The position numbers and the translations under genes are program-made. A stretch of 41,035 nucleotides of DNA, taken from the NCBI GenBank assembly GCA_947626285.1, contig CANQRR010000029.1:1-41035 (forward strand), given 5' to 3'. Each line of letters starts with the position of its first letter. Position 1 is the stretch's first letter. Source of the stretch: an uncultured Lachnospiraceae bacterium (lineage in GTDB: Bacteria > Bacillota > Clostridia > Lachnospirales > Lachnospiraceae). The notes under the pieces are model-generated. The model was given only the letters and a program-made list of their open reading frames with translations, was not told where the DNA came from and searched no databases. Positions 7,253-16,795 of this stretch are shown in pieces.

Positions 7253-8020
7253 TTACTCCGCGATCGCGTCTACCGGAGCCTCCTCCGTGTAAACTCCCTC
7301 GTCGTAATATTCGCCCTCGGCCGCCGGAACTTCCTCAGCGCCCTGCTTTGCCTCGATGACAGCGTCCGCCATCTTGGAAACGATGAGCTTGACCGCACGG
7401 ATCGCGTCGTCGTTGCCCGGGATCACATAGTCCAGCTCCTCCGGATCGCAGTTCGTGTCGCAGATGCCGATCAGCGTCACGCCAAGCGCGTGGGCTTCCT
7501 GCACGCAGATGTGCTCTTTCTTCGGGTCTACCACGAAGATCGCGTCCGGAATCCGGCGCATCTCTTTGATACCGCCAAGGTTCTTCTCCAGCTTCTCCTG
7601 CTCCTTGCGCAGCGCGATGACTTCCTTCTTCGGCAGCACGTCAAAGGTGCCGTCCTCCGCCATGCGCTCGATGTCCTTCAGGCGCTTGATCCTGCCCTGG
7701 ATCGTCTTGAAGTTCGTCAGCATACCGCCAAGCCATCTCTCATTTACATAGAACATACCGCAACGCTCCGCCTCGGTCTTGATCGCATCCTGCGCCTGCT
7801 TCTTCGTGCCGACGAAAAGAATGCTGCCGCCGTTCGCCGCGATGTCCGCGACTGCCCTGCAGGCCTCGTCCACCTTGCCTACCGACTTCTGCAGGTCGAT
7901 GATGTAGATGCCGTTGCGCTCCGTGTAGATGTACTCCGCCATCTTCGGGTTCCATCTTCTGGTCTGGTGCCCGAAATGGACGCCCGCCTCAAGTAACTGC
8001 TTCATTGAAATTACGCTCAT
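7253..8020 (-). CDS. rpsB: 30S ribosomal protein S2
   Basis: S2, 255 residues, is a late-assembling small-subunit protein. The start [20 protein letters not shown], then [12 protein letters not shown], is diagnostic. [19 protein letters not shown] and [14 protein letters not shown] are conserved. The last ~35 residues are acidic and variable. A good AAAGGAG ribosome site precedes ATG 8020. It is the first gene of rpsB-tsf, with its own strong promoter and a leader of about 170 bases. Confidence 0.98.
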
Positions 8021-8244: not shown

Positions 8245-9504
8245 TTACTCTCTTCTCAGCGCCTCAATCGGATCCAGGTTCGCCGCCTTCACGGACGGCA
8301 GCAGTCCGAAGATCAGGCCGATCAGCATGGAGAACACCACCGCGATCACGGACGCCACCACGTCGATGGACACCGCGACGCCTGATATCTTGTTGATCAC
8401 CTGCGCCATGCCGATGCCGCTCGCCACGCCGATGATGCCGCCGATGCTCGTCAGCACGGCCGCCTCGGTCAGAAACTGTCCAAGGATCGACCCCTTCCGC
8501 GCACCAATGGCCTTCTTCAGGCCGATCTCGTTCGTGCGCTCCGTCACCGACACCAGCATGATGTTCATGACGCCGATGCCGCCGACCAGAAGGGAGATAC
8601 TGGCGATCCAGATCAGCTGGTTGTTCGTGGCCGCGCTCATGTCCTGCAGCTTCTGCGCGCGCTGGAGCACGTCGTCCGCCTTGTACTTGAAGTCCGTCTG
8701 TGTGGACGCGACGGTCGCGTTCAGGATATCCTCGGTGTCCTTTCCGGCGTCCTCCATATCGTCTACGCTCACCGCCTTCACGATGACATTCTCCGGCTCG
8801 TCGTAACGGTAGACGATCGGCCAGGAGGCCTTCGGCATAAACAGATAGCCGACCGCGTCGTCGTTCGCGTAAGTATAATAATCCTCAATGGAGTTGATGT
8901 TCGGCGTAAACTTCCGACTCTGCTCTGCCACTCCGATGACCGTAAACGGCGCCTTGTTGATCTCGATCGTCTTCCCGATCGGGTCGTCGTTGCCGAATAC
9001 ATTGTCGGCCGCCGTCCGGTCCATGATCAACACCTTGCGGAAATTCTTGTAGTCACTCTCGATAAAATTCCTGCCCGTGCGGATCATGTAGCCTACGGTA
9101 TCAAAGTAGTTCATGTCGATGCTGCGCACGCTTACGCTCTGCAACGCCTCGCCCTTATAATAAATGCTCTCCGAATACTGGCGTTCGTTATAGCGCGTCA
9201 CGTTCTCCACTGAATCCAGCGCGCGGATCTTCTCGCAGGTCTCGTCCGACACTTCCTGGAACCCGTCGGGCGGACCCTGCCAGGAGTCAATCGTATAGGC
9301 GTAACCCTGGTTGTAGATCATGACCGACAGCGTGTTGTTCCCGGAACCGATCAGATTGTTCTTGATCTCCTCGTTCGTTCCTTTGATCGTAGAGACGATC
9401 GAAATGATGGAGGCGATACCGATGATGATACCCAGCATCGTCAGAAACGAGCGCATCTTATGCGACCAGATTCCCTGGAACGAGAGTCTTATGTTTTCCA
9501 GCAA
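8245..9504 (-). CDS. MacB-type ABC transporter permease
   Basis: This 419-residue FtsX/MacB-family permease has a membrane segment at about residues 18-40 (FLTMLGIIIGIASIISIVST), a ~250-residue extracytoplasmic domain, then three more segments at about 290-315, 345-370 and 380-405. GIGVMNIMLVSVTERTNEIG, then LKKAIGARKGSI, is the conserved MacB signature. The family moves peptides, lipids or drugs by transmitting ATPase motion across the membrane. The TTG start at 9504 follows AGGGGGTG, which overlaps the stop of the preceding adaptor gene, so translation is probably coupled. It is the last gene of the four-gene ABC operon. The substrate is unknown. Confidence 0.9.
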   Translation of the reverse strand: MLENIRLSFQGIWSHKMRSFLTMLGIIIGIASIISIVSTIKGTNEEIKNNLIGSGNNTLSVMIYNQGYAYTIDSWQGPPDGFQEVSDETCEKIRALDSVENVTRYNERQYSESIYYKGEALQSVSVRSIDMNYFDTVGYMIRTGRNFIESDYKNFRKVLIMDRTAADNVFGNDDPIGKTIEINKAPFTVIGVAEQSRKFTPNINSIEDYYTYANDDAVGYLFMPKASWPIVYRYDEPENVIVKAVSVDDMEDAGKDTEDILNATVASTQTDFKYKADDVLQRAQKLQDMSAATNNQLIWIASISLLVGGIGVMNIMLVSVTERTNEIGLKKAIGARKGSILGQFLTEAAVLTSIGGIIGVASGIGMAQVINKISGVAVSIDVVASVIAVVFSMLIGLIFGLLPSVKAANLDPIEALRRE

Positions 9505-9516
9505 ATCTTACACCCC

Positions 9517-12500
9517 CTACATTTCCAGCCGGTCGACGTCTGTCGTCTTCGCGCCTTCCTTGACGTCCTTCCCGTACGGGAACGCGATGCTGTCCGTGGA
9601 TTCCAGACCGTCCTTGATCTCAAGCGCATATCCGTACATGCTCTTGCCTGTCGTGACATACTGTTTCGTCAGAGTGCCGTCCTCGCCTTTTTTGTACACG
9701 TAGGATCTGCCATCCGCCTCGGAGCGGATAAAGTAATTCTCCAGATAAATGCCGTCCATGCTCGGGACCGTAGCGGTAAGATAGATCTCCGCATCTCCTT
9801 CTTCCAAGTCCAGCCCTTCCGTATTCTCGATCAGCGCATAGAACGGGTAATGCGATGCATTGGTATTCCCCTGCCCGTAATAATCCGTATAGTCTTCCGG
9901 ATACTCGGAGATCTCCTTGACCACCGCGGTAAAGTTCGCGCCGGTCATCGACGACATACCGGAAATCGTATCGCCGACATGAATCTTCTCAAGCGACAGC
10001 TCGCTCATCATACCTTTCACATACAGTCCGGTCTCGTTCGAGATCTTCAGGAAATAATCGTCCTCCGTCTCTTCAGTCGATCCGCCCATGCTGACCACCG
10101 TGCCGTCCATCGTGCTCTTGACGACCTTGCCGTCGACGACGCGCTGCTTCTGCTTCAGATCCAACTCGCTCTGGCGAATGTCCAACGCGCACGATTTAAT
10201 CTCGTTCTCCTTGTCGCGGATCATCTCCTTCAACTCTTCCGCCGTATAGATTTCGTCTTCGTCGTAATCATCGTAATCGCCGTAATCGTCTGAGAACTCC
10301 GTCTCCGGCTCCTCGTCCGTCCACAGCCCACTCTGCTTCATCGTGTCGACAAAGAGCGGCGTGGCGGATACCAACGCCTTCTGCGCGTCGTTCAGTTCAA
10401 GATACTTGCCCCAGATCTCCGTGAGCTTAATATATCTGTCCTGCTCCGGCGTCTCCGGCGGCAACGCCAGATAATCCTGGAACATCTGAATCACCGCGTA
10501 GGCTGCCAGCGTCTCCCCGATGCTCAGGAAATCCTTTGGTTTCTTCCGGTTTCCTTTCTTGCTGACCTTCCAAGGAGTTCCCGCCTGCTCGGCAAGCGCC
10601 GCCTGCTCGTCTTCCCAGCGCAGTTCCAACTCATACCGCCAGTTTTCGCCCAACCGATTGTATGCAATCAGCGCCTTTTCCAACAGCGTCTTGTCGAGCG
10701 CCGCCTGGTTGAGCTTTAAAAACATCGTCTTCACATAGAGCATGCAGAGCTCTTTATAATTCTCTGTCAACAGCGCCACACGCTCGCTCTTCCCCTCGTC
10801 CGTCAGATAATTGACCACATTCTCCAGAAGCTGGTACTTCTCCATCTCCGGTCCGGTTGACTGCGCCGCCTCATCCAGAAACTCCTCCGGCACACGGGAA
10901 AGCCACTGCTGATAAAACGTGATAGCCCCCTCGATCTCCGTGACGTAGTCCTTGCCTTCTTCTGTGCAGACCTGCTCTCCATCCGAGGCGAGCAGCTTCT
11001 CCGCATTTCCGAGGAAAGTGTCCGTGTAGCTATTGATCGCATCCGGAGCGTCCTGATATCGCGCAGTCGCGATCACATCATACGCCGGCATAAGAAAGCT
11101 GGCGTATCCCTGGTCAATGTCCTCATCCAGCAGATCGATCTTGCGCTCTGTCTCCTCGGACTCTGTCTCCTCGGACTCTGTCTCCGTCTGCTCCGGCGCC
11201 GCCGCGGCCTGCAGCGTCGTCTGCCCCGACCCGGTCTCGGTCTGCTGACCCGCCGGTTCCGTCCCGGTCTCAGTCTGCTGACTTTCCTGCTCCGATGCAG
11301 TCTCGGTCTGTTGACCCTCCTGCTCCGTCTGCTGGCCTTCCTGCTTTGCAGGCTCGACGCTCCAGCCGATAAACGCGAGCGTGACGTCTTTCAGATCCGC
11401 GTTCAGCGGAACCAGATCTCCCTTTTTGTACTGTTTCGTCTGTCCGCCCGGATTGATCGTCACCGTGTATGTATCTGTCTGAGGAAGCTCTGTCTTTTCC
11501 GGCGTGCCGGTGTTCTGACCTGCCGGCGTTTCAGACTGCGTCTCCGACGTCTCGGACTGTGACTCCGGCGTCTCAGTCTCCGCAGGCGCCGCAAGCTGCG
11601 TCCCCACCGTGACGATCGTGTCGTTCGTCTGAATTCCCTCTATTATATAATCATCCGGTTCCTCGCTCGCCTCATTCTTCCGCGCCGGGATCGAACCATC
11701 CACCAGCACATCGGTGATATTGTATCCATCCTCCAAATCAATGCGGAACACGATCTTTCCGTCCTGTGCCATCGCCATGGAATTCGTCACATCCTGACCA
11801 TCAACGGTCGTCATCGCTCCGTCCGCCACATCGAACACCACGGTATTCAGGCGCACATCCTGACCGTCCTCCCCGCCCTCAGATCCTTCCGGCGTCTGCG
11901 GCGCGTCAGACGTTTCCCCTTCATCAGTTCCTCCCTCCGGGGTGTCGCTCTCCCCGCTTTCAACGGTCTGTGTCTCAAGATCTCCCAAGCCGTCTTCGCC
12001 CGAAGGCTCCTCCTGCGGCTGACCCGGATCCGTCTCTCCCGCGTCAGTCTCATCCTGCGGCGGCAACGTCTCCGCCTTCTCCGCCAACTGCTCCATCAGC
12101 TCTGTATTTTCAACCTCATCCTGCTGCGCGGTGGCAAGCAGGTCATACGCCGCCCGAATCTGCGCGACCGCTCCTGGCAGCGCGGAATCATCCTCAAGAA
12201 CCGACGCTTCATAGATCAGCATCTCTACATATTGTACCTGATATTCATCCAGCTTCGTGCAGAGCTCCTCCAGCTCCTCCAGATTTTGCTGATTTTCCAA
12301 ATCTTCTGAACCTTCCGACGTACTCTCTTCCTGAGCGATTGCCTCTTTCACCGTATCTTTGAGCGTATAGCTGCGGACTTCCCTTGTCGTGCCGTCCGCC
12401 AGCGTCTCCTCACTGACCTGCTCATCCGCCAGATGCTTCCTGTAATAGAGAACTGCCTGCTCGATCGCCTCGCCCACATTTTCCGCACTCAGATCATCCC

Positions 12501-13242
12501 CGCAGGAAAGGAACGTCGTCTCGATTGCCAACACCAGACCCTTAAAGCTGAGCACGCCGTCCGCGAGCGTGGCCGGCTCGTCGTCATCGACAGCGTCCAC
12601 CTCTTCCACGCCTTCAATCGTCACGCCGGAGTCTTCAAACTCATCTGAAAATTCCCCGGAGCCCGCCGGATCTCCGGCGGATGTACCGTCCTCCGATGTC
12701 TCATTTTCTTCCGTCACAAGCTCCTCCGTAACGGGCTCTGTCTCCGTCTCCGCAGTGGTCTCCGGAACCTGCCCTGCGGCGGGCTCCGTCTCGTCCGCAG
12801 ACGCCGTCAATGTGAACCAGTCCCGCTTCAGAGAAGCCGTCGCCGGTGTCTTCTTCAGCTTATCCAGCTCTTTCTCCAGTCTCGTCATTGTCAGCTTGTT
12901 CGTCTGAAGCTCCAGCTGCTGCATCTCGAGCTCCAGCTCCTGCAGCGTCATATCATAGGAGAGCAATGGCGTTCCTTCTTTTACCGTATCTCCCTGCTTG
13001 ACATAGACCTTCTCTACCCCGTAATCGTCATCCAGCCTCACAGTCTGCGCGACCTGAGAAGTGATCGAACCGTAGATCGTCTCCTGCTGATCCATCCCGT
13101 AATATCCCTGCGAAACATTCGCGACAGGCACCACCTCGACCGGCGATTTCTGATTCTGCGTGACATAATATGCGCCGTATCCCGCGCCGCCCACCAAAGC
13201 CGCCGTTACTACTACGCTGATCAAAACCGTTCTCAATTTCAT
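9517..13242 (-). CDS. Giant HlyD/MacA-type membrane fusion adaptor with ~870-residue insert
   Basis: This is a 1241-residue protein; adaptors of this family usually have 350-450. A signal anchor lies at residues 5-27. The lipoyl-like half VEKVYVKQGDTVKEGTPLL (77-95) and first hairpin helix (98-130) are at the front. The returning helix (1001-1036), second lipoyl half (STMDGTVVSMGGS, 1043-1055) and beta-barrel/membrane-proximal parts are at the end. Between residues ~130 and ~1000 lies an insert. It is rich in Glu/Thr/Gln in low-complexity stretches (155-215, 395-460, 550-590, 630-705). It also has helical segments resembling FIVAR-type repeats (240-395, 735-970; for example LNDAQKALV) and beta segments like Listeria-Bacteroides repeats (465-550, 595-730; FIGWSVEP, SFLMPAYDVIATARY). 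Its start overlaps the ATPase stop as ATGA. Confidence 0.85.
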   Translation of the reverse strand: MKLRTVLISVVVTAALVGGAGYGAYYVTQNQKSPVEVVPVANVSQGYYGMDQQETIYGSITSQVAQTVRLDDDYGVEKVYVKQGDTVKEGTPLLSYDMTLQELELEMQQLELQTNKLTMTRLEKELDKLKKTPATASLKRDWFTLTASADETEPAAGQVPETTAETETEPVTEELVTEENETSEDGTSAGDPAGSGEFSDEFEDSGVTIEGVEEVDAVDDDEPATLADGVLSFKGLVLAIETTFLSCGDDLSAENVGEAIEQAVLYYRKHLADEQVSEETLADGTTREVRSYTLKDTVKEAIAQEESTSEGSEDLENQQNLEELEELCTKLDEYQVQYVEMLIYEASVLEDDSALPGAVAQIRAAYDLLATAQQDEVENTELMEQLAEKAETLPPQDETDAGETDPGQPQEEPSGEDGLGDLETQTVESGESDTPEGGTDEGETSDAPQTPEGSEGGEDGQDVRLNTVVFDVADGAMTTVDGQDVTNSMAMAQDGKIVFRIDLEDGYNITDVLVDGSIPARKNEASEEPDDYIIEGIQTNDTIVTVGTQLAAPAETETPESQSETSETQSETPAGQNTGTPEKTELPQTDTYTVTINPGGQTKQYKKGDLVPLNADLKDVTLAFIGWSVEPAKQEGQQTEQEGQQTETASEQESQQTETGTEPAGQQTETGSGQTTLQAAAAPEQTETESEETESEETERKIDLLDEDIDQGYASFLMPAYDVIATARYQDAPDAINSYTDTFLGNAEKLLASDGEQVCTEEGKDYVTEIEGAITFYQQWLSRVPEEFLDEAAQSTGPEMEKYQLLENVVNYLTDEGKSERVALLTENYKELCMLYVKTMFLKLNQAALDKTLLEKALIAYNRLGENWRYELELRWEDEQAALAEQAGTPWKVSKKGNRKKPKDFLSIGETLAAYAVIQMFQDYLALPPETPEQDRYIKLTEIWGKYLELNDAQKALVSATPLFVDTMKQSGLWTDEEPETEFSDDYGDYDDYDEDEIYTAEELKEMIRDKENEIKSCALDIRQSELDLKQKQRVVDGKVVKSTMDGTVVSMGGSTEETEDDYFLKISNETGLYVKGMMSELSLEKIHVGDTISGMSSMTGANFTAVVKEISEYPEDYTDYYGQGNTNASHYPFYALIENTEGLDLEEGDAEIYLTATVPSMDGIYLENYFIRSEADGRSYVYKKGEDGTLTKQYVTTGKSMYGYALEIKDGLESTDSIAFPYGKDVKEGAKTTDVDRLEM
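11147..11340. repeat. Low-complexity repeat coding Glu/Thr/Gln-rich linkers
   Basis: Two and a half tandem copies of a 15-bp unit, TCTGTCTCCTCGGAC, lie at 11147-11185. Degenerate copies of a segment coding QQTET-like peptides follow up to 11340. The region codes residues ~635-700 of the giant adaptor. Such tracts expand and contract easily, so length may vary between strains. Confidence 0.7.
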
Positions 13243-13925
13243 TGGTCGGTCTCTCCTTTCTGTTCTGCAAGCTCGCCGTCAAAGATCGTGACTACACGCT
13301 TTGCGTAACCAGCGATCCCGCTGTCGTGCGTGATCATGATCACGGTCACTCCCTCATCGTTCAACTTCTGGAACAGCTCCATCACCTGCTTGCTCGACTT
13401 GGAGTCCAGTGCGCCCGTCGGCTCATCCGCCAGCAGGATATCCGGCTTGTTCACCATTGCACGCGCGATCGCTACCCTCTGCTTCTGTCCGCCGGAGAGC
13501 TGTGTCGGCTTGAACGTGACACGGTCCTCCAGCCCGACGCGGATCAGCGCCTCTTTGGCCTTCGCGCGGCGCGCGCGCTTGCGGATACCCGCGTAGATCA
13601 ACGGCAGCGCCACATTGTCCAGCGCTGTCATGCGCGGCAGAAGCTGAAAATTCTGAAACACGAAGCCGATGTTGCGCAATCGCACGTCGGCAAGCTGACG
13701 TTCGTTCAGCGACAGGACATTTTTTCCCGTCAGCTCATAGCTGCCTGAGGTCGGGCGATCGAGGCAGCCGATGATATTCATCAGCGTCGACTTCCCGGAA
13801 CCGGATGGTCCCATGATCGCCACGTATTCGCCCTTTTCTACGTGCAGACACACATCTTTCAGAACAGGGACTGTCATTTTACCCTGAATGTAATCCTTAT
13901 ATATATGCTCCAGACTGAGGATCAA
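13239..13925 (-). CDS. MacB/LolD-type ABC transporter ATPase
   Basis: This 228-residue nucleotide-binding subunit has Walker A GPSGSGKST near residue 40, signature LSGGQKQRVAIARAM, Walker B ILLADEPTGALD and the switch histidine in VIMITHD. FVFQNFQLLPRMTALDNV is typical of the LolD/MacB subgroup that works with MacB-type permeases. The TTG start at 13925 follows GGGAGGGG. It lies 18 bases after the first adaptor and overlaps the second by four bases, so all parts of the transporter are in one transcript. It should power the permease at 8245-9504. Confidence 0.95.
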   Translation of the reverse strand: MILSLEHIYKDYIQGKMTVPVLKDVCLHVEKGEYVAIMGPSGSGKSTLMNIIGCLDRPTSGSYELTGKNVLSLNERQLADVRLRNIGFVFQNFQLLPRMTALDNVALPLIYAGIRKRARRAKAKEALIRVGLEDRVTFKPTQLSGGQKQRVAIARAMVNKPDILLADEPTGALDSKSSKQVMELFQKLNDEGVTVIMITHDSGIAGYAKRVVTIFDGELAEQKGETDQ

Positions 13926-13943: not shown

Positions 13944-15317
13944 CTACTCTTCGTACACCTCTTCATCATCCATATCTATGTCGTCATAGCTCATATCATC
14001 CATGCTCATGTCGTACATGTCCATGTCATCCATACCCATGTCATCCATGCCCATATCGTCCGTGCCCATGCCGTCCGAAAGCGCACCGTCCGCGCCCTCT
14101 ACGCCCGCAGTGAAATCATTGTAGATGACCGGGGCGCCCTCCGTGACCGTATCCATCGGATACGCGATATAATCCTCCGGAGCAAGGCCATCCAGGATCT
14201 CGTACTCCATAAGCTCCTCATCGTACTCCCCGAGCGTGACTGCATGCTTCTCGATCTTATTGGAAGAATTCGCCATCCACACATAACTGCTGCCGTCTTC
14301 CTCCTGCATGATGTAGTACTCCTCAAGCCACATGCCATCTTTCTTTTCCGACTGGCCGTCGTCCGCCTCCATATATACATGCTGCCCGAGTATCAGCCCC
14401 GTCGAATCGTCCAGTTCCACATAAAAAGTATAGTTGGAGGATCCCGATTCATTCCCCATTCCGGAATAATAGTAATTGTTTTCTTCTTCCTCTTCCTTAT
14501 CGTCCGTGTCGATCTCAGACACCGTACCCGTCCAAGTCAGCGTGTCGTCCACCCTGGAGTGCACGATCATGTCCGTCCCCTCCTCAAGGGAATTGAGGTT
14601 CTGCTCGTTGATCGATCCCTTGACCCGGAAATCTCCGATCGCAAGGATCGTTATGTACGCGGCGTCACTGCTGGATGATCCATAATAGTCGCTTGCACTG
14701 TCCTCTTTATCCGAGATCTTCTGAATGATCCCGCCCATCTCCGCGGTGACCGTAGCGTTGTTGATCGTCTCCTTAAGCTGCTCCATCTCAAGCTGCTTGC
14801 TCTTGATGTCATATTCGTACTGCTTGATCTCGTTCTGCGCCGTCATGATGTTCGTCGTGATCATCAGCTGATCGTCCTGATCCGCAGACTGCTTATCCTT
14901 CTCCAGCTGCGCGATGCTCTGTTTCGCGAGCTCAATGTCCGCGTTCGCCTTCTCGATGTCGATCTCCGCCTGCGCAAGCTTATCCTCGTCCTCGCGCGTG
15001 TCGTAAATGAACAGGCGCTCGCCTTCCTTGACCTCATCGCCTTCCTCTACGTAGCACTTCTTGACCGTGCGGTCGTTCTCCAGCTTCACTTCAAGCGTCG
15101 CCTGCGGACAAATCTCGCCGCCGAAACGCTCGATCAGACCGGTACCCGCGCCGTATCCTGTGATCGTGGAGACCAGATCCACATACACCGCATTTTCATC
15201 CGTGGAGGAAACGCGTTCCTGCGATCCCGCCTTATTTTCAAAAAAGTAATGGTAAACTCCATACCCGCCTCCGCCCAGTATCGCGAGGACTAATATGGCT
15301 ATTATGAACTTCTTCAT
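13944..15317 (-). CDS. HlyD/MacA-type membrane fusion adaptor with Met/Asp-rich tail
   Basis: This 457-residue adaptor has an N-terminal signal anchor at 3-21 (FIIAILVLAILGGGGYGVY). The lipoyl-like half is CYVEEGDEVKEGERLFIYD. A coiled-coil hairpin (about 118-195) of normal size, the second lipoyl half (AEMGGIIQKISD) and beta-barrel domains follow. The last 42 residues (416-457) are made of DDM and GM units with 11 methionines and 15 aspartates. Such Met-rich and acidic tails could bind metal ions, but no family assignment supports that. It is first in the operon with the ATPase, the giant adaptor and the permease. Start ATG 15317 has GAAGGG ten bases upstream. The tail is coded by short imperfect DNA repeats at about 13975-14070. 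Confidence 0.9.
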   Translation of the reverse strand: MKKFIIAILVLAILGGGGYGVYHYFFENKAGSQERVSSTDENAVYVDLVSTITGYGAGTGLIERFGGEICPQATLEVKLENDRTVKKCYVEEGDEVKEGERLFIYDTREDEDKLAQAEIDIEKANADIELAKQSIAQLEKDKQSADQDDQLMITTNIMTAQNEIKQYEYDIKSKQLEMEQLKETINNATVTAEMGGIIQKISDKEDSASDYYGSSSSDAAYITILAIGDFRVKGSINEQNLNSLEEGTDMIVHSRVDDTLTWTGTVSEIDTDDKEEEEENNYYYSGMGNESGSSNYTFYVELDDSTGLILGQHVYMEADDGQSEKKDGMWLEEYYIMQEEDGSSYVWMANSSNKIEKHAVTLGEYDEELMEYEILDGLAPEDYIAYPMDTVTEGAPVIYNDFTAGVEGADGALSDGMGTDDMGMDDMGMDDMDMYDMSMDDMSYDDIDMDDEEVYEE

Positions 15318-15556: not shown

Positions 15557-16795
15557 TCAGATCAGCGGATACTTTTCCGTCAGACCTTTCACGATCGCCT
15601 TTGCTTTCTGCTCACAGCCATCCTCATTCTTCAGCATGCACGCGATCGCCTCGGCGATCTGATCCATGTCTGCTTCGTTCATGCCGCGTGAAGTGACCGC
15701 CGGCGTCCCAAGCCGAATGCCGCTCGTCACGAATGCGGACTGCGGATCATTCGGGATCGTGTTCTTGTTGCAGGTGATGTTGACGCTGTCGAGCAGATGC
15801 TCGGTCTCCTTGCCGGTACGTCCCACGCTCGTGAGATCCACAAGCATCAGATGGTTGTCTGTGCCGCCGGAGACGATCTTCACGCCGCGGTTCATCAGAC
15901 CCGCGCAGAGCGCCTTCGCGTTCTTCGCAACGTTCTCCTGGTAAGTCTTGAACTCCGGCTGCAGCGCCTCGTGCAGGCAGACGGCCTTGGCCGCGATCAC
16001 ATGCATCAGCGGGCCGCCCTGCGTGCCTGGAAAAATCGCCTTGTTGAAATTCGCTTCTTTCGCAAACTCGGCGCTGGAGAGAATCATCCCTCCGCGCGGT
16101 CCGCGCAGCGTCTTGTGCGTCGTCGTGGTCGTCACATGCGCATAGGGAATCGGACTCGGATGTACGCCTGCCGCTACCAGTCCGGCGATATGCGCGATGT
16201 CCACCATCAGATACGCGCCGACTTCGTCCGCTATCTCGCGAAATTTCTTGAAATCAATAGTGCGCGCGTAAGCGCTCGCACCCGCCACGATCAGCTTCGG
16301 ACGGCACTCCAACGCGATCTGCCGCACATTCTCATAATCGATCACGCCGTCGTCGTTCACGCCGTACGGGACAACGTGGAAATACGCGCCTGAGAAATTC
16401 GCGGGGCTCCCGTGGCTCAAATGACCGCCGTGCGCAAGATTCATGCCCATCACGGTGTCGCCCGGCTTCAGCAGCGCAAAGAACACTGCCATGTTCGCCT
16501 GCGCACCGGAGTGTGGCTGCACATTCGCATACGTGCATCCGAACAACTTCATCGCGCGGTCTCTGGCCAGATCCTCGACCACATCCACACACTCGCAGCC
16601 GCCGTAATAGCGCTTGCCCGGATATCCCTCCGCGTATTTATTCGTCAGCGGGCTTCCCATCGCCGCCATCACAGCCTTTGACACCCAGTTCTCAGATGCG
16701 ATCAGCTCGATATGGCTGTTCTGCCGTTCCTGTTCCGCCACGATCGCGTCCGCCACTTCCGGGTCCACGCGTCTGACTTCCTCAAGTGAATACAT
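15557..16795 (-). CDS. glyA: Serine hydroxymethyltransferase
   Basis: This 412-residue PLP enzyme interconverts serine and glycine while loading tetrahydrofolate with a one-carbon unit. The PLP lysine is K228 in [35 protein letters not shown] (after N-terminal helix) and [17 protein letters not shown] are the family hallmarks. Length and ends are normal. It is monocistronic: a strong promoter with a structured ~150-base leader lies upstream and a strong terminator downstream. Confidence 0.97.

Follow-up and report, generated by a model that had tools for sequence, protein, structure and literature searches.

An adaptor with a domain-bearing head at its hairpin apex in a MacAB-like exporter of Lachnospiraceae

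A stretch of 41,035 nucleotides from an uncultured Lachnospiraceae bacterium (contig CANQRR010000029.1, assembly GCA_947626285.1), the whole of which is called the window here, carries on its minus strand an operon for a MacAB-like ABC exporter with two paralogous adaptors. One of these, A1, is an ordinary adaptor. The other, A2, was confirmed as a MacA-type adaptor whose halves, residues 1-132 and 1001-1241, are separated by 868 extra residues at the apex of the hairpin. Extra residues at this place, the head, occur throughout the family in one of the two adaptor paralogues and are not the oddity of a single gene, and their content differs by lineage. The most probable role of the head, discussed below, is at the peptidoglycan.

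A split adaptor and its unsplit paralogue

The operon has the order A1 - ATPase - A2 - permease, with all four genes on the minus strand (lengths in amino acids, aa):
13944..15317, minus strand: A1, ordinary adaptor, 457 aa, hairpin tip of about 9 residues (TIGR01730 E 2e-19; PDB 5xu0 E 5.9e-4; tip lengths)
13239..13925, minus strand: ABC ATPase of the MacB/LolD type, 228 aa (PF00005 E 9.4e-36; MacB model E 4.1e-84)
9517..13242, minus strand: A2, adaptor with inserted head, 1241 aa (adaptor-model matches, genus loci, tip lengths)
8245..9504, minus strand: MacB-type permease, 419 aa (PF12704 E 1.2e-33; PF02687 E 1e-19)

The open reading frame (ORF) of A2 is uninterrupted by stops. In the window protein the RND_mfp model (TIGR01730) matches with E 5.6e-8, its best stretch being residues 50-130, and the type I HlyD model matches residues 66-140 (E 4.2e-5); at the other end EmrA matches residues 1010-1112 (E 2.2e-4) and CzcB, weakly, residues 1012-1113 (E 0.031). 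Since adaptor models match only the two ends of A2, the 868 residues in between (133-1000) are an insert, which bears out an original prediction of a MacA/HlyD-type adaptor whose halves flank about 870 residues at the hairpin tip. The parts follow in the MacA/HlyD order, a lipoyl half before the hairpin and the return arm, lipoyl half and barrel after it. Whole-protein scores of both adaptors lie under the curated TIGR01730 cut-off of 94.9 bits (A2 32.1, A1 69.8), and A2 is filed as MacA-type because of its operon and a profile match to PDB 5xu0, the MacA-like adaptor of Streptococcus pneumoniae, not as a member of TIGR01730. Searched directly against the PDB, the window A2 found nothing at E≤1. 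With a profile built from 16 A2 proteins that have short heads, 5xu0 was matched both before and after the hairpin (E 1.3e-25; N match 5-71, C match 112-267), as was MacA 4dk0. The A2 orthologue at locus L189 has no head and a continuous hairpin, and represents the natural unsplit form.

The ABC system supposed to surround the adaptor is indeed present, as a MacB-type operon. Its permease (PF12704 and PF02687) has a MacB_PCD core and an FtsX-like C-terminal domain, with an adjoining gene for a MacB/LolD-type ATPase, and so belongs to the MacB type (type VII).

A2 was matched in 46 of 47 genomes of the genus, the window's own included, and in 24 of the 25 better ones (E≤1e-10); the sole genus genome without a match, G042, is rated 98% complete. 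The 40 genus loci that were fetched are those in which the gene is apparently whole, contig-end fragments being left out, and in each of the 40 a single open frame holds both the N and the C half, with A2 lengths from 710 to 1439 aa. A profile of the C half matched 75 of 299 genomes of the family (E≤1e-25), of which the weakest may be A1-type or partial, and both halves stood on one frame in 63 of the 67 loci fetched from other genera of the family. Among the four remaining loci, L109 and L118 are short contig-end pieces without the N half, and L159 and L174 have a partial C-half match. Homologues with the same split architecture, which the original prediction had proposed to look for, thus exist, and their frames (40/40 and 63/67) rule out the assembly error or fusion of two genes that it had named as a danger; we leave that explanation next to no probability. 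In a phylum-wide sample the C-half profile (E≤1e-20) matched 1 of 398 genomes, the window's own. A scan of genome contigs found a single relative, L033, also from an uncultured Lachnospiraceae bacterium, and it was from L033 that the analysis took the family name. The best-scoring TIGR01730 adaptors from 149 genomes of the phylum had open frames of at most 565 aa among the matches listed, in a ranking that favours intact adaptors, so that split ones may well exist elsewhere in the phylum.

A head is present in 108 of 109 measured A2 proteins, the exception being L189. With this protein left out, the length set (n=108: the window, 40 from the genus, 63 from the family and four further proteins) has heads of 46-1061 residues, with a median of 345 and a lower quartile of 218. 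At the same place A1 has 0-49 residues, with a median of 9 (n=99, rows L052, L139 and L172 dropped). The hairpin arms have medians of 32 and 39 residues in A1 and of 35 and 44 in A2; since the two adaptors differ so little in arm length, the head counts as an apical addition. Another adaptor ORF was present close to A2 in 64 of the 67 family loci, that of L139 being cut by a contig end, and the three loci without one are short contig-end or clipped pieces of 1.7-2.7 kb. In a tree of the halves, made by a quick method that left many deep forks unresolved, A2 forms a single clade apart from eight A1 rows (SH-aLRT 100).

Domains of the head

The head of the window protein has the order H1 - linker - B1 - linker - B2 - H2. 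The parts of A2 are, from its N terminus:
12847..13242, minus strand: N half (residues 1-132), with an N terminus that reads as hydrophobic, lipoyl half and hairpin arm 1 (adaptor models; dN/dS 0.10 against L033)
12577..12846, minus strand: linker 1 (residues 133-222), opening with ATASL...TLTASA, largely conserved in the genus (composition, conservation)
12079..12576, minus strand: helical domain H1 (residues 223-388; profile match in 41/41 genus A2; AlphaFold2 best model pLDDT 66)
11860..12078, minus strand: low-complexity linker 2 (residues 389-461), 89% P/T/E/S/Q/D/G (composition)
11587..11859, minus strand: beta module B1 (residues 462-552; in 8/41 genus A2; tandem in a giant genus ORF)
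11482..11586, minus strand: low-complexity linker 3 (residues 553-587; composition)
11047..11481, minus strand: beta module B2 (residues 588-732), InlB-repeat type by orthology (in 19/41 genus A2)
10315..11046, minus strand: helical domain H2 (residues 733-976), homologous to H1 (hhalign, alignment)
10243..10314, minus strand: acidic stretch (residues 977-1000; composition)
9520..10242, minus strand: C half (residues 1001-1241), return arm, lipoyl half, barrel and membrane-proximal part (adaptor models, profile match; dN/dS 0.13)

The helical blocks had been read as FIVAR-like. This identity was rejected: the window protein has no FIVAR match at E≤1, and a Pfam search with 22 copies of H1 gave no FIVAR and no family matching more than two copies (best E 0.003) among 25 of 44 families listed. 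The two blocks are homologous to each other and represent a single kind of helical domain (hhalign probability 97.1%, E 5.7e-11). PDB profile searches stayed at chance level (H2 best E 0.16, H1 best E 0.33). Apart from the best one, the AlphaFold2 models of H1, built on a four-sequence alignment, reached a pLDDT of 41-49 (four models), and Foldseek found no match of the H1 model in the PDB at E≤0.001; given these poor models and the lack of a Foldseek match, no fold is claimed for H1. In 40 genomes of the genus, all but one of the H1 profile matches listed lie in A2 frames or fragments, and the exception is a 1200-residue frame (G025:C8, E 2e-5).

The beta modules are of two kinds. B1 has no Pfam name, and tandem copies of it occur in a 5291-residue ORF of a genus member (L194, G036 contig 11), so that the head and this giant ORF have a module in common. 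B2 is interrupted by a QTE-rich stretch of 64 residues (637-700). The proposal of Listeria-Bacteroides-like repeats in the head has support by orthology, in that the L040 block orthologous to B2 (588-732) matches Flg_new_2, a divergent InlB B-repeat, with E 9.3e-5 and 22.8 bits against a curated cut-off of 23.6; the window A2 itself has no direct Flg_new or Flg_new_2 match in Pfam. Flg_new_2 is found in 6 of 40 genus members. The low-complexity Glu/Thr/Gln linkers were recovered as three stretches with 86-89% P/T/E/S/Q/D/G. The motif ATASL....TLTASA (residues 134-149; window 12796-12843, minus strand), directly after hairpin arm 1, is kept in the genus.

The head evolves faster than the halves, yet it is constrained, with purifying selection between the window and L033. 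The dN/dS values come from this one pair, and several segments are short: 0.10 for the N half and 0.13 for the C half, 0.31 for H1, 0.17 for H2, 0.16 for B1, 0.13-0.40 for the two parts of B2, 0.27-0.47 for the linkers and 0.37 for the acidic stretch. Linkers 1-3 diverge fast, with 41-58% identity in the same pair. Within the genus the halves have mean pairwise identities of 59% and 56%, and the helical domains lower ones, 32% (H1) and 37% (H2).

Outside the genus most family heads contain another domain, P, of about 90 residues, with the consensus ...PYKGEGTKEDPYRFLC...GSFLNKLAGY...YAVLEVREGDS.... Counted with a profile built from these same proteins, P is present in 52 of 63 non-genus family A2 proteins, in 1-3 copies, and nearly every one of these A2 proteins comes from a different genus. 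The profile matched 0 of 41 genus A2 and 0 of 102 A1 proteins. Over 150 family genomes, which served as a positive control for the phylum search, it gave 31 matches in 26 genomes; the matches fall in A2 frames in 24 of these, and the doubtful cases, G141 and G053, are A2 as well. It had no match in 299 genomes of the phylum. P and H are thus nearly confined to A2. Pfam scans of the 63 family A2 proteins showed only adaptor or lipoyl domains among the families matched by more than four members. An NCBIfam search with 38 copies of P matched nine families with one member each, taken as chance (best E 0.0021), and a PDB profile search with P stayed at chance level (best E 0.51). The linkers around P contain 11% Pro, 11% Thr, 13% Glu, 9% Ser and 10% Asp, and in all 52 P heads there are at least 20 linker residues on each side of the domain (medians 62 before and 43 after).

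In 10 of the 108 heads there is no match to P or to H. Among single heads, that of L169 contains Big_2 and that of L145 a Listeria-Bacteroides repeat, and Cna_B occurs in 1 of the 63 family A2 proteins. At L188, A2 is broken across two frames inside the P domain, by a sequence error or in a broken gene.

Two separate H stretches are present in 40 of 41 genus A2 proteins and one in that of L071, and the H profiles match a single stretch of the head in the closest rows from beyond the genus, L108 and L113. In the tree of the halves all 43 H-headed rows form one clade (SH-aLRT 99) among P-headed rows. The simplest history would be a single replacement of P by H, then a duplication of H, and then the insertion of beta modules between the copies, with counts that do not separate gain from loss.

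Operon surroundings and possible roles of the head

The gene order A1-ATPase-A2-permease was seen directly in 17 of 20 larger neighbourhoods, among them L197, with a small ORF in between. At L207 and L212 a reverse-strand ORF, taken for an antisense frame, occupies the expected position of the ATPase, and at L213 the ATPase match is at another place. No cargo gene recurs beside the operon in the 20 neighbourhoods. Neighbours that can be named from their sequences include glyA, rpsB and tsf, and glyA-like and rpsB-like clusters each lie near the operon in 5 of the 20; in the window the flanking ORFs at 15557-16795 and 7253-8020 look like glyA and rpsB. The C-terminal tail of A1 (window 13966-14076, minus strand) is a Met/Asp-rich repeat (DDMGMDDMGMDDMDMYDM...) in a 15-base tandem array.

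The S. pneumoniae adaptor is described as a hexameric tube that rises to an apex about 154 Å above the membrane, a height close to the thickness of the inner wall zone; the turn of its hairpin, Pro142-Gly163, was untraceable in the structure (PMC5768738). The tube of this homologue reaches up to the underside of the peptidoglycan, and heads at the apex of A2 would be placed at the same level. The reading that we favour, with about an even chance of being right, gives the head a function at the peptidoglycan, as a dock of the exporter on the wall or as an extension of its outlet into the wall. A1 and A2 would together form the tube on top of the permease, in a hexamer that may be mixed, and the A2 heads would sit at its apex, just under the peptidoglycan, on two-legged tethers. 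From there they would anchor the exporter to the wall or lead the outlet into it, and ATP-driven movement of the permease would work the tube below them. Lineages may swap the head to fit their own wall or surface. A docking or outlet role fits the recurrence of P, the linkers on both sides, the lineage-specific heads and the lack of a recurring cargo gene. According to a review, YknX binds peptidoglycan (PMC5985334).

Several observations weigh against this reading. As L189 is headless, the head is not indispensable. At the genus loci L070, L071, L072 and L073, A1, a headed A2 and the permease stand together with no window-like ATPase in the piece fetched (G011, G014 and G019, three of the genomes behind these loci, also hold a copy with the ATPase), and at L185 a divergent A1-A2 pair with a P-headed A2 adjoins a membrane protein that looks ABC-2-like, with no MacB in the fetched piece. 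With all A2 proteins included, the strongest couplings between the arms favour an antiparallel register that has its centre at i+j=1137 (18 of the top 30, with 0 of 3000 random sets as good) and would close the hairpin at residues 132/1005. Without the H clade the register holds 13 of the top 30 (161 of 2000 random sets as good), and in the H clade alone the antiparallel band is absent; the control hairpin of A1 was not recovered either. Because the subsets weaken or lose the band and the A1 hairpin was not recovered, the couplings are only suggestive. AlphaFold2 modelled the arms and helical blocks of the L033 orthologue (1173 aa, two-sequence alignment) as helices at a pLDDT of 30, uninformative on the fold. 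Every functional step of this reading, finally, wall binding, hexamers and mixed A1/A2 rings included, is inferred.

The foremost alternative, though an unlikely one, is the arm that catches substrate, of which the original prediction had also thought. Such a head would bind either the molecule to be exported or a toxic peptide on the outer side of the membrane, and would keep it at the mouth of the tube or feed it in. The known Gram-positive MacB-type pumps are linked to the peptides SDP, AS-48 and LL-37, according to two papers (PMC5985334; PMC8277102), and head content differs among lineages, as cargo might; against this, no cargo gene recurs in the 20 neighbourhoods, and the presence of P in 52 of 63 A2 proteins, nearly all from different genera, suggests a common ligand. 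That the adaptor serves as a scaffold showing an adhesin-like head to hosts or other microbes is less probable still. The B1 repeats of the 5291-residue ORF, Big_2 in L169, the Listeria-Bacteroides repeat in L145 and Flg_new_2 in 6 of 40 genus members are what such display would lead one to expect, but P, the commonest head domain, and H are nearly restricted to A2, many heads are short (lower quartile 218 aa, n=108), and the gene remains in an exporter operon.

Heads packed over the open end of the tube as a lid or gate that controls its opening would suit their place at the apex, and with only one paralogue headed, the count of heads in a mixed ring would be restricted. The linkers that flank P in its 52 heads, at least 20 residues on either side (medians 62 and 43), and heads of up to 1061 aa, make this improbable. 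Slightly less likely again, and ranked last of these readings, is the neutral expansion of a loop that tolerates anything. It would account for lengths from 46 to 1061, for linkers 1-3 at 41-58% identity between the window and L033, for the one headless A2 (L189) and for the 10 of 108 heads with neither a P nor an H match; it would not account for the recurrence of P across many genera, for purifying selection on H and B1, or for the lack of any long insert in the homologous hairpin of A1 (0-49 aa, n=99).

Relation to known exporters and surface proteins

Among the hairpin variants described in reviews of adaptors are elongation by heptads or paired helices, folding back, and loss (PMC4446572). 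What an adaptor is for in a bacterium that lacks an outer membrane is a question raised in reviews (PMC5985334; PMC4446572). Domains built onto the TolC-contact point of one adaptor make this question testable. The family also provides two apparently undescribed domain families, P and H, and hairpin tips that form a natural size series, starting at zero and passing 1000 residues. No domain inserted at the hairpin tip of an adaptor was found described in the searched parts of the open-licence literature. In agreement with the original prediction, which knew of no system of this shape, the headed A2 system is a MacAB-like exporter of a form not found described there. More tentatively, and at somewhat less than even chances, it may be a distinct class of Gram-positive exporter, in which two paralogous adaptors form one tube and a swappable apex head of dedicated P or H domains, in the place of TolC, couples the tube to the peptidoglycan or carries it through.

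The nearest described systems share the core of the operon. The MacAB-like pump of S. pneumoniae, Spr0693-0694-0695 (PDB 5xu0), likewise has a MacA-type adaptor, a separate ATPase and a MacB-type permease. It differs in having one adaptor with about 22 untraced residues in the turn, and the part of its description available gives no head or second adaptor (PMC5768738). YknWXYZ of Bacillus is likewise a Gram-positive MacA/MacB-like system; it has one adaptor and the four-transmembrane protein YknW, and no head is described in the accessible portions of the sources (PMC8277102; PMC5985334).

The InlB-type, Big_2 and Listeria-Bacteroides surface repeats are found inside some A2 heads. These repeats are known from surface proteins, and not from between the arms of an adaptor hairpin. 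MacAB-TolC of Gram-negative bacteria resembles the A2 system in having the hairpin apex at the distal end of the tube, and PDB entries of MacA match the A2 profile. To our knowledge MacA of Gram-negative bacteria has no inserted domain, and its apex meets TolC; in A2 the same point carries the head.

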